A stretch of 64,000 nucleotides of DNA from Sediminicoccus rosea. GTDB taxonomy: Bacteria; Pseudomonadota; Alphaproteobacteria; Acetobacterales; Acetobacteraceae. Positions 55,643-58,670 of this stretch are shown one piece after another; the first letter of the stretch is position 1, and each line of letters opens with the position of its first letter. The stretch covers positions 4,179,001 through 4,243,000 of the forward strand of contig NZ_CP137852.1 in assembly GCF_033547095.1 (NCBI RefSeq), given 5' to 3'. The translations under genes were made by a program, and so were the position numbers. Under the pieces are notes generated by a model. The model did not search any database, was not told where the DNA came from, and saw nothing but the letters and a program-made list of their open reading frames with translations.

Positions 55643-55996
55643 ATGCTCGTCATCCATCTCGCTTTCTCGCTGCTGGCGCTCGCCGCCATCCTGGCCATCC
55701 TGCTGCTGCCCAAGGGGCGCGGCGCGCATCGCTGGCTCGGGCGCCTGGCGGCCGCCGCGCTGGCGCTGAGCGCGCTCTCCTCCTTCGGGATCCAGGCGCG
55801 CGGGCATCTCTCCTGGCTGCATGTGCTCTCGGTGGTCACGCTGGTGAACCTGGCCTGGGCGGTCTGGGCGATCCGCCGGGGGCGCGTCGCGGTCCACCGG
55901 CGCGCCATGCTGGCGGGCGCCGGCGGGCTCTTCGTGGCGGGGCTCTTCGCCACCTTCGCGCCCGGCCGCTATCTCTACGGCGTGTTCTTCGGCTGA
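55643..55996 (+). CDS. DUF2306 small membrane protein
   Basis: A 117-residue protein with four membrane helices (about 2-22, 30-48, 57-76 and 88-110) and short basic loops (RRGRVAVHRRAML), matching DUF2306. The family is uncharacterised. The divergent TetR gene and the twin operators mark it as the regulator's probable target. Its last 22 bp overlap the 3' end of the convergent channel gene. Confidence 0.85.
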   Translation: MLVIHLAFSLLALAAILAILLLPKGRGAHRWLGRLAAAALALSALSSFGIQARGHLSWLHVLSVVTLVNLAWAVWAIRRGRVAVHRRAMLAGAGGLFVAGLFATFAPGRYLYGVFFG

Positions 55997-56829
55997 GCGC
56001 GCAGCTCCGCCACCTCGGCCCTGAGGGCACGCACCTCCTGCACCAGGGCGCGCAGATCCGCCCGGTCGGCGCTCTTCGCCGCCGCCTCGGCCGCCGCCTC
56101 GCCCGCGCCGCGGTCGTCACGCAAGGTCTGGATGCTCTCGACGATCACGCCGATGAAGAGGTTGAGCACGACGAAGGTCGAGATCACGATGAAGGGCATG
56201 AAGAAGACCAGCGCCCAGGGCTCGGCCTCCATCGCAGGCTTCACGATGTTCGCCCAGTCATCCAGCGTCATCAGCTGGAACAGGGTGAAGAGGCTGGCGC
56301 CCAGCGTGCCGAACTGCTCCTCCATCTCGGTGCCGAAGAGCTTCGTCGCCATGACGGCGAAGACGTAGAAGAGCAGCGCCATCAGCAGCACGATGCTGCC
56401 CATGCCGGGCAGCGCGCCCAGCATCGCCTCCACCACGTTCCTCAGGCTCGGCACCACCGAGATCAGGCGCAGCACCCGCAGCACGCGCAGCGCGCGCAGC
56501 ACGGCGAGCGGGCCGCTGGCCGGCATCCAGGCGATGGCGACGACGATGAAGTCGAAGATGCCCCAGGGGTCGCGGAAGAAGCGGCCGCGGAAGGCATAGA
56601 TGCGCAAGGCGAGCTCGAGCGTGAAGAGGTAGAGCAGCACGGCATCCACCGCATGCAGCAGGGTGCCGTAGCCCGCCATGATGCTGTCGCTGGTCTCGAG
56701 GCCGAGCGTCACCGCATTCAGCAGGATCAGCCCGATCACCACCCGCTGGAAGATCGGCGCCAGCACCAGCCGCGCCACGCGGGCGCGCAGGTCATCGCCG
56801 GTGTCGAGGGCGGTCAGGGCTTCCTGCAT
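55975..56829 (-). CDS. NaVBac-type voltage-gated cation channel with TLDDWAN filter
   Basis: A 284-residue six-helix channel subunit that forms homotetramers. S1-S3 lie at about 26-103. The S4 voltage sensor has four Arg at every third position (R112, R115, R118, R121). S5 (about 145-165), a pore helix and S6 (about 205-232, ending FIGVIVESIQTL) follow, then a C-terminal coiled coil (258-278) as in NaChBac. The selectivity filter is T188-L-D-D-W-A-N194, where sodium channels of this family have TLESWSM. Two aspartates per subunit resemble the engineered calcium-selective CavAb filter, so the natural ion may be calcium. ATG 56829 was preferred to a start 18 codons upstream, since homologues start near the first helix. 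Confidence 0.92.
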   Translation of the reverse strand: MQEALTALDTGDDLRARVARLVLAPIFQRVVIGLILLNAVTLGLETSDSIMAGYGTLLHAVDAVLLYLFTLELALRIYAFRGRFFRDPWGIFDFIVVAIAWMPASGPLAVLRALRVLRVLRLISVVPSLRNVVEAMLGALPGMGSIVLLMALLFYVFAVMATKLFGTEMEEQFGTLGASLFTLFQLMTLDDWANIVKPAMEAEPWALVFFMPFIVISTFVVLNLFIGVIVESIQTLRDDRGAGEAAAEAAAKSADRADLRALVQEVRALRAEVAELRAQPKNTP

Positions 56830-56908
56830 GTCCGAATCTCCATATTGCGGACATGCAATGGCCGCACAGGCAGCTGGGATCAAGCCCCGCGCGTGCGGTG
56901 ATTCGGGG

Positions 56909-57586
56909 TCAGAAAGGCAGCGCCGGGTAACCGAAGAGCCAGGGATGGCCCACCAGCAGCGCGATCCAGGCCACCAGGCTGATGATCCAGACCAGGCGCG
57001 GGATCTCCGCCGGCACGAACCGGTTCCGCCCGGCCAGGATGGCGCCGAAGGGCAGGATGGAGGTGACGGGTTCGAGGCGCGCCCAGAGCGCCGGCTGCAG
57101 CGCGGCCAGCTTGCGGTCGATCGAGGGCATGCCCACCAGCGAGGTCACCAGGAAGGCGCCGAAGAAGAAGACGCCCGAGAGATTCCCCTTGGCGATCAGG
57201 TGAAGCGCCGCCCATCCGGCGAAGGACCAGAGCATGGGGTGGCGCGTGATGCGCTGGATGCCGCGCGGCCCCGTCTCGTCCAGCTTGCCGCCCACGGCCG
57301 TCGGGTTCGGCGTCGCCACCGAGGCGACGAAAAGCAGCATGATCGGCAGCATGAGCAGCGCCATCAGCCAGCGGTACCAGTCCGGCGCGTCCCAGAGCGG
57401 GATGTAGGGCGCCGCCTGCCAGGCCATGACGAGCAGCGTGATGCTCACCACCGAGATCAGCGAATAGCCGATGCGGAATCCCACCTCGCCCAGGGACTGA
57501 ACGAGGCGCGCGCGGACCGCCGTGCCCGCGATGCCGACATGGACGCCCACCCAGAGGATCGCGGCGGCAAGAAGCAGGACCATCAT
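56909..57586 (-). CDS. NnrU family membrane protein
   Basis: A 225-residue protein with about six membrane helices. It has the NnrU/isoprenylcysteine-methyltransferase-like pattern with TGPRGIQRITRHPMLWSFAGWAALHL. NnrU was linked to nitric oxide reductase expression in some denitrifiers, and relatives (such as in carotenoid pathways) may be isomerases or methyltransferases; the role here is unknown because no denitrification genes are nearby. Two adjacent Met codons (57586 and 57583) can start it. It is between gmd and the channel gene on the same strand. Confidence 0.87.
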   Translation of the reverse strand: MMVLLLAAAILWVGVHVGIAGTAVRARLVQSLGEVGFRIGYSLISVVSITLLVMAWQAAPYIPLWDAPDWYRWLMALLMLPIMLLFVASVATPNPTAVGGKLDETGPRGIQRITRHPMLWSFAGWAALHLIAKGNLSGVFFFGAFLVTSLVGMPSIDRKLAALQPALWARLEPVTSILPFGAILAGRNRFVPAEIPRLVWIISLVAWIALLVGHPWLFGYPALPF

Positions 57587-57635
57587 GCGCCCGAGCATAG
57601 CCGCGCCGATGGGCGGCATGCCACGGGAAATCGCC

Positions 57636-58670
57636 TCAGCCGGCCGAGAGCGCCGCGAGATCCGCCCGCACCATCTCGGCCACCATGGCGGCGAGGCTGG
57701 TGGTGGGGCGCCAGCCCAGCTTCTCGGCCGCCTTGGTGGCGTCGCCGATCAGCAGGTCCACCTCGGCCGGGCGGAAGAAGGCGGGGTCCACGCGGACCAG
57801 CGTGCGGCCTGTGGCGCGGCAGCGGCCCACCTCGTCCACGCCGCTGCCCTCCCAGGCCAGTTCCACGCCCAGCTCGCGGAAGGCGAGGGTCGCGAAGTCG
57901 CGCACGCGATGCGTCTGGCCGGTGGCGAGGACGTAGTCATCGGCCTCGGGCTGCTGGACCATGCGCCACATGCCCTCGACGTAGTCGCGCGCATGGCCCC
58001 AGTCGCGCTGCGCCTCGAGGTTGCCCAGTGCCAGGTCACGCTGGCGGCCGAGATGGATGGCGGCGGCCGCGCGGGTGATCTTGCGGCTGACGAAGCCCTC
58101 GCCGCGGCGCGGGCTCTCATGGTTGAACAGGATGCCGTTGGAGGCGTGCATCCCGTAGCTCTCGCGGTAGTTCACCGTGATCCAGAAGCCGTAGAGCTTG
58201 GCCACGCCATAGGGCGAGCGCGGGTGGAAGGGCGTGAGTTCGTTCTGCGGCACGGCCCTGACCTTGCCGTAGAGCTCGCTGGTCGAGGCCTGGTAGAAGC
58301 GCGTCCGGCGCTCCAGGCCGAGCAGGCGGATCGCCTCCAGCAGGCGCAGCGTGCCGAGGCCGTCGGCATCGGCGGTGTATTCCGGCACCTCGAAGCTCAC
58401 TGCCACGTCGCTCTGGGCGGCGAGGTTGTAGAGCTCGTCCGGCTGGCTGTCCTGGACGACGCGGATGAGGTTGCCGCCATCCGTCAGGTCGCCCTCATGC
58501 AGGATCAGGCGGCCCTCATTCGCGGGCGTGATCAGGTGGGCGATGCGCGCCCGGGCGGCCGTCCCGCCCCGGCGCAGCAGCCCATGGACCGTGTAGCCTT
58601 TCTCGATCAGGAGCTCGGCCAGATAGGAGCCATCCTGTCCGGTGATGCCGGTGATGAGTGCCGAGGGCAT
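57636..58670 (-). CDS. gmd: GDP-mannose 4,6-dehydratase
   Basis: An NADP-dependent SDR enzyme turning GDP-mannose into GDP-4-keto-6-deoxymannose for fucose, rhamnose or perosamine in surface polysaccharides; 344 residues. The Rossmann motif [14 protein letters not shown] is at the N-terminus. [11 protein letters not shown] carries the catalytic Thr/Ser-Glu, and [10 protein letters not shown] the catalytic Yxxx[17 protein letters not shown] and [13 protein letters not shown] complete the family pattern. No GDP-fucose synthase or rhamnose partner is in the window, so the product is unclear. ATG 58670 fits the normal start. Confidence 0.95.

Follow-up and report, generated by a model that had tools for sequence, protein, structure and literature searches.

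The calcium selectivity of CavAb, an engineered form of NavAb, was reportedly measured by Tang in 2014. Here we describe a gene for a voltage-gated channel subunit with a closely similar filter, TLDDWAN, that occurs natively in Sediminicoccus rosea, within a 64,000-nucleotide stretch of contig NZ_CP137852.1 (positions 4,179,001 to 4,243,000, the whole of which is hereafter called the window). Comparison with relatives shows that trees of the pore of this channel conflict with those of the rest of its gene.

Several described channels resemble that of the window in part. CavAb (PDB 4ms2, 5klg) is man-made and keeps a Gly after its filter, whereas the window channel is native and has no such Gly. 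CavMr of Meiothermus ruber, the first native prokaryotic Cav, is likewise voltage-gated, bacterial and native, and its filter is of calcium type (PMC7041947). However, it is an AnclNav with Gly at filter position 4, whereas the window channel is NavAb-like with Asp at this position, a residue that lowers calcium selectivity in CavMr. The native filter of NavPp from Plesiocystis pacifica, TLEDWTD, is acidic too and shares Asp at position 4 with the window channel, but NavPp differs in its AnclNav backbone, in Glu at position 3 and in being sodium-permeable and calcium-blocked (PMC7041947). The NaChBac mutant TLDDWADG, in which a sodium channel acquired a barium and calcium preference, shares TLDDWA (Yue 2002, as described in PMC4225499); it is engineered and has Asp at position 7 followed by Gly, in contrast to Asn and no Gly here. 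CatSper1 is a one-domain channel that also has Asp adjoining the high-field-strength site (PMC10120453), although it is a eukaryotic sperm channel.

A 2023 filter inventory assigns one-domain channels of bacteria to the class lacking Asp beside the high-field-strength site and, in its available parts, names no native bacterial filter with Asp at positions 3 and 4 (hereafter DD; PMC10120453). AnclNav candidates with more acidic filters are described in a branch separate from the NavAb-like one (PMC7041947). In the literature searched, which covered few subscription papers, no channel with a natural TLDDWAN, TFDDW, FDDWSG, FDDWSN or MDDFGN filter was found, and searches on channel recombination or on Roseomonas or Roseococcus channels brought up none either; the literature searched likewise gave no report of a canonical-branch channel with a native CavAb-like filter, or of a pore with a history unlike the rest of its gene.

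Results

The selectivity filter

The original prediction, made from the sequence alone, had placed the filter TLDDWAN at residues 188-194. Alignment indeed puts the filter start at residue 188 and matches the window channel with CavAb unambiguously through position 7, more tightly than had been claimed; the span first given, 56241-56268, contains the seven codons (Table 1) and is seven bases too long. The CavAb filter had been quoted as TLDDWSD, a form found in reviews (PMC10120453, PMC4436565), but the five CavAb-type PDB chains 6ke5, 5klg (titled 'CavAb(W195Y)'), 4ms2 (titled 'Ca2+ selectivity of a voltage-gated calcium channel'), 6juh and 6keb all read TLDDWSN. Relative to these chains, the sole letter change in the native filter is Ser to Ala at position 6. 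In its letters the filter is of the CavAb type: positions 3 and 4 both hold Asp, position 5 holds Trp and position 7 Asn, where Asp would fit as well.

Overlooked in the original prediction was the absence of the residue after position 7. The Gly found at position 8 in NavAb and CavAb is missing, and every one of the 26 DD-type sequences has its loop shortened by this one residue. Repeat I of T-type calcium channels aligns here likewise without the extra post-filter residue, and a shorter post-filter loop also occurs in L025, called AnclNav-like from its TLEGWPD filter alone. A chance or misaligned filter was ruled out by the same alignment column in relatives and by the PDB alignments. Moreover, the filter is not a chance motif, since 18 of the 21 genomes of the genus (the window's own included) hold an orthologue, 10 with TLDDWAN and 8 with TLESW[AS]E.

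Apart from the filter, which reads TLDDW and not the TLESW of canonical BacNav channels, the architecture is canonical: an Ion_trans subunit with S1-S6, S4 arginines, P1-filter-P2 and a C-terminal helix. The protein is 46-48% identical to NavAb over about 220 residues and 67-75% identical to sodium-type orthologues from its own genus, and outside the filter it clusters with TLESW relatives in trees. NavAb and CavAb rank top among the solved bacterial chains in a PDB search; T-type calcium channels rank first there by summed repeats, which was not taken as closeness. An NCBIfam search gave a sole match, far below its cut-off. The four S4 arginines named in the original prediction align with the arginines printed for the NavAb and CavAb chains. 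For the C-terminal coiled coil that it also named, a helix is predicted at residues 206-278, from which a coiled coil may be expected.

Pore and flanks give conflicting trees

Related channels of at least 255 aa and at least 300 bits, with identical proteins counted once, gave a set of 67 sequences, and the neighbouring gene nnrU served as species marker. For tree comparison L123b and the sequences without nnrU were dropped, leaving 44, of which four with other filters were unlabelled; the remaining 40 comprise 21 DD and 19 TLESW-type (ES) sequences. On these, the channel protein tree built without filter columns separates DD from ES by 1 type change, whereas the nnrU protein tree, in which genera are largely recovered, has 11. 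By protein segment, the number of type changes is 1 for the pore, 4 for S4-S5 and 9 each for the N-terminus to S3 and for the C-terminus. DNA trees display the same conflict, with type and genus changes of 1 and 6 for the pore (residues 148-240 minus 188-198, as in all pore trees), 7 and 3 for the voltage sensor, 10 and 2 for the C-terminus and 12 and 2 for nnrU; type labels shuffled on the nnrU DNA tree gave a mean of 13.6 changes and a minimum of 8. Approximately unbiased tests agree: for the pore, a DD clade is recovered (support 100/94) and the window's genus (g1) is rejected as a clade (p 0.00024), whereas g1 is recovered and a DD clade rejected both for the flanks (95/98; p 0.0011) and for nnrU (97/97; p 1e-40).

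In 31 sequences, other-genus, same-type pairs were set against same-genus, other-type pairs along the gene. Residues 161-240, taken as four segments of which the second contains the filter, give differences of +0.08, +0.16, +0.04 and +0.03; all other parts of the channel and nnrU give values from -0.12 to +0.01. For third positions alone, these four segments give +0.09, +0.07, -0.01 and +0.06. The pore island is visible directly in one pair, L097 (AMDDFGN) and L098 (TLESWAE). The deletion, Asn194 and Ala199 are common to 26/26 DD sequences, and none of them was used to define the class.

The locus beside nnrU

Upstream of the channel gene and on its strand, nnrU is found in the window as well as in relatives with either filter type, and the gap between the two matches is 56-122 nt in 36 of the 40 labelled sequences (163 nt in L018, 248 nt in L157, about 1.25 kb in L039 and L042). 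Separate ancient loci for the two filter types were rejected for most sequences, as both types adjoin nnrU. Linkage is present in 45 of the 67 distinct sequences and absent or not judgeable in 22. No nnrU lies within at least 1.5 kb upstream in L010, L060, L096 and L102, or in the stretch examined for loci of genera g4, g58, g63, g69, g71 and g121; L008 has only a partial nnrU match 1.3 kb distant, and in L093 nnrU is 833 nt distant. In L039 and L042, from Roseococcus-type genomes, nnrU is about 1.25 kb from the channel, which suggests an inserted stretch between them. On the other side, DUF2306-like and TetR genes are common to several g1 genomes of both types, and in the window the channel gene shares the 22 bases at its 3' end (55975-55996) with the convergent DUF2306-like gene (55643-55996). 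The channel start was set at the ATG at 56829, matching the aligned start of close relatives.

Table 1. Coordinates of the channel gene, its parts and the adjoining nnrU gene in the window
Feature	Position	Strand	Remarks
Voltage-gated channel subunit, NavAb-like BacNav family	55975..56829	-	284 aa plus stop
S4 voltage-sensor helix, residues 109-125, with R112, R115, R118, R121	56455..56505	-	helix prediction 109-125 and alignment with CavAb S4
Pore module, residues 161-240 (turret, P1 helix, filter, P2 helix, S6)	56110..56349	-	phylogeny tracks filter type, not genus
Selectivity filter T188-L-D-D-W-A-N194, then directly I195	56248..56268	-	Gly of NavAb/CavAb absent
C-terminal helix (predicted), residues 241-278	55996..56109	-	helix prediction 206-278; DNA tree tracks genus
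NnrU family membrane protein	56909..57619	-	PF07298, 157.5 bits; upstream, same strand; neighbour kept in relatives

Distribution of acidic filters

Among 385 genomes of the window's class, the DNA pattern FQx[MVI]T[LF]DDW was found in one, the window's own, and a TLESW-like pattern in 64. A search for the filter across bacteria, suggested along with the original prediction, was run on a collection of 84,980 species, each represented by a single genome, and gave 54 stretches with the DDW pattern, 53 of them inside channel open reading frames (30 TLDDW and 23 TFDDWS[NGA]G); the other, L070, is a chance hit outside any such frame. The exact pattern overlooks AMDDFGN and further variants. Eighteen of the 30 TLDDW channels read TLDDWAN, all from Acetobacteraceae/Roseomonadaceae genera or alphaproteobacterial metagenome-assembled genomes, and the filter is invariant in 19/19 distinct sequences of that subtype in the Acetobacteraceae clade. 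A channel of Thioalkalivibrio sp. HK1 (L048:3811-4590) has TLDDWSN, the same seven letters as the CavAb chains.

The TFDDWS[NGA]G channels (L032, L034, L046, L047, L072 and 18 more loci), mostly from Rhizobiales, form a second native DD clade without the deletion; 19 of the 23 are from Microvirga, Methylobacterium, Enterovirga, Rhabdaerophilum or Beijerinckiaceae. Phe at filter position 2 occurs in some BacNavs (PMC10349818). In a tree that omitted sequences shorter than 225 aa, duplicates and four distant sequences (L028, L142-L144), the TFDDW channels group with TLDAWSD ones (support 99), apart from TLDDWAN, and L025 lies outside the window channel's clade, many deep branches being weak. Because of this separate TFDDW and TLDAWSD clade, DD filters probably have more than one origin.

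Within the family, 77 of 397 genomes had a channel match at E 1e-20. Filters were tallied in 77 genomes, namely 71 of those matched (G136, G179, G181, G218, G327 and G365 were left out) and six further genus genomes outside that draw. The tally is TLESW[AS]E 22, TLDDWAN 20, TLESWS[MT] 9, AMDDFGN 7, TLDAWSD 7, TLEGWVE 4, TLEGWPS 2, one each of TLEGWVD, TMEDWTN, TLEGWTS and TMEGWIQ, and 4 unlike these. Like g1, genera g119, g126, g96 and g71 contain both DD and TLESW types, and proteins identical to g1 members occur in Roseococcus (L042, L079) and Rubritepida (L065). AMDDFGN, in which Thr is replaced by Ala, Leu by Met and the filter Trp by Phe, is found in g119 and g126 (L090, L091, L092, L095, L097, L101, L107). 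Genus g4 has TLEGWV[DE] filters (L102, L108, L113, L114, L118); that of L102, TLEGWVD, has the seven letters of CavMr, yet on a NavAb-like backbone nested within the DD clade. TLDAWSDG occurs in seven genomes of genus g58 (L135-L141), and the TLESWSE channel of G213 from the same genus is placed near g126 (99/86), which suggests gene transfer. In three genomes of genus g166 (G586, G756, G679), two TLESW-like motifs lie 911 nt apart, suggesting tandem sodium-type channels.

Discussion

Ion selectivity

Of the original proposal that the channel conducts calcium rather than sodium, the filter alignment with CavAb holds, whereas calcium permeation is still a deduction from it. We regard the channel as probably calcium-preferring. 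A native canonical, NavAb-like channel with a CavAb-type acidic filter, presumably a homotetramer, would open upon depolarisation through S4 movement, and D190 and D191, forming stacked rings of carboxylates below N194, would most likely coordinate partly hydrated calcium, giving a divalent-preferring inward current. In the NavAb backbone, Asp at position 4 alone results in ~100-fold higher calcium permeability (PMC10120453), and the NaChBac mutant TLDDWADG, with Ala at position 6, prefers divalents (PMC4225499). Several observations weigh against this assignment. NavPp permeates sodium and is blocked by calcium (PCa/PNa 0.308), and the G4D mutant of CavMr drops to PCa/PNa 7.7, losing most of its calcium selectivity (PMC7041947), so the filter letters alone do not settle selectivity. 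NsvBa with LDDWADG still lets monovalents through, the missing post-filter Gly may alter filter geometry, and the shorter loop is shared with L025. Having a NavAb-like backbone but a shorter loop, the window channel sits between the NavAb and AnclNav precedents. A sodium or non-selective channel blocked by extracellular calcium, as NavPp is, would fit this loop, and NsvBa with TLDSWGS is indeed non-selective; still, we find this unlikely, given the closeness to NavAb, in whose backbone Asp at position 4 raises calcium permeability, and a filter one letter removed from the CavAb chains. Among the 21 genus genomes, neither calcium export (PF01699 match in 16/21, including the window's own) nor flagella (flagellin in 19/21) explains the filter type.

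Origin of the pore module

The DD-type pore with its one-residue deletion is probably of single origin within Acetobacteraceae, and would have passed between lineages as a module of ~80 residues through recombination within this gene; at the same nnrU-linked locus it would have taken the place of a sodium-type TLESW[AS]E pore or given way to one. We lean towards such exchange over parallel change, giving most weight to the non-defining deletion, Asn194 and Ala199; our confidence was lowered slightly because a possible intermediate exists and because the class contrast is partly definitional. Several points speak to the contrary. No clear synonymous trace of recent exchange emerged in the pore when one was sought: type changes number 3 at third positions, where shuffling gave at least 6, but 9 at fourfold sites, equal to the shuffled minimum. 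Between different genera, codons for identical residues agree about equally in same- and other-type pairs (0.75 vs 0.73 in P1, 0.80 vs 0.79 in P2-S6), pore synonymous identity is 0.87, not low, for L097/L098, and it is also high in some other cross-type pairs. Restriction to codons with little type difference makes the signal fade to 5-8 changes (shuffled minima 8 or 9), and for codons with overlap above 0.75 the lowest shuffles do as well. That the classes differ at positions 3 and 4, and that ES has Glu at 7, is true by class definition. Finally, L093 (TMEDWTNG), with Asp at 4, Asn at 7 and no deletion, may be an intermediate, and the pore grouping could partly reflect convergence.

Most of these points would also be expected if point mutations and a small deletion had arisen in place and type-specific pore residues had evolved repeatedly to fit the filter, the pore tree then recording convergence. 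The synonymous codons without clear type signal, the fading outside type-specific residues, the position of these residues mostly around the pore and TMEDWTNG as a step on the route all speak for such parallel adaptive change. However, with 11-12 type changes on the nnrU trees, the same deletion, Asn194 and Ala199 would have been needed many times, and the pore signal outlasts removal of the 16 type-diagnostic codons (still 2 changes), so we consider it improbable. Less likely again is an ancient tandem duplication next to nnrU that yielded one sodium-type and one divalent-type channel, with lineage-wise loss of one copy and gene conversion of the outer parts thereafter. In G227 (L123:2091-3872) two channels do follow nnrU in tandem and are most divergent in their P loops (0.43 identity), but this is the sole nnrU-linked pair among the loci examined and combines TMEGWIQ with TLESWAE, not DD with TLESW; moreover, conversion has to be added, as the trees of voltage sensor and C-terminus show no grouping by type. 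Decay or lack of expression, with a filter that has drifted in a relic gene, is very improbable: 3 of the 21 genus genomes have no match, and a simple scan of 55900-57800, covering not all promoter types, gave no promoter-like site, but the window and most relatives have unbroken reading frames, S4, P1 and S6 residues are conserved, and the filter is identical throughout its subtype. Overall, a native CavAb-type channel whose pore module has been exchanged among lineages is the best explanation, to which we give about an even chance.

Implications

A filter designed in the laboratory to learn how calcium and sodium are discriminated thus has a near-identical native counterpart. The natural pairs L097/L098 and window channel/L012, the last a TLESW[AS]E relative, allow direct tests of selectivity evolution and bear on why Asp at position 4 is calcium-selective in the NavAb backbone and calcium-blocked in NavPp; AMDDFGN, with both the filter Thr and the conserved Trp replaced, offers another such case. 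Should calcium entry be borne out, native bacterial voltage-gated calcium entry would extend beyond the AnclNav branch. More tentatively, the family may keep two ancient pore modules, sodium-type and calcium-type, circulating at a single locus and swapped by within-gene recombination, while sensor and C-terminus stay with the species. The series TLESWSM, TLESW[AS]E, TLEGWV[DE], TMEDWTN, TLDDWAN and AMDDFGN would then record exchange on one scaffold, and ion selectivity would be an exchangeable trait in channels whose voltage sensor and C-terminal domain are species-bound.
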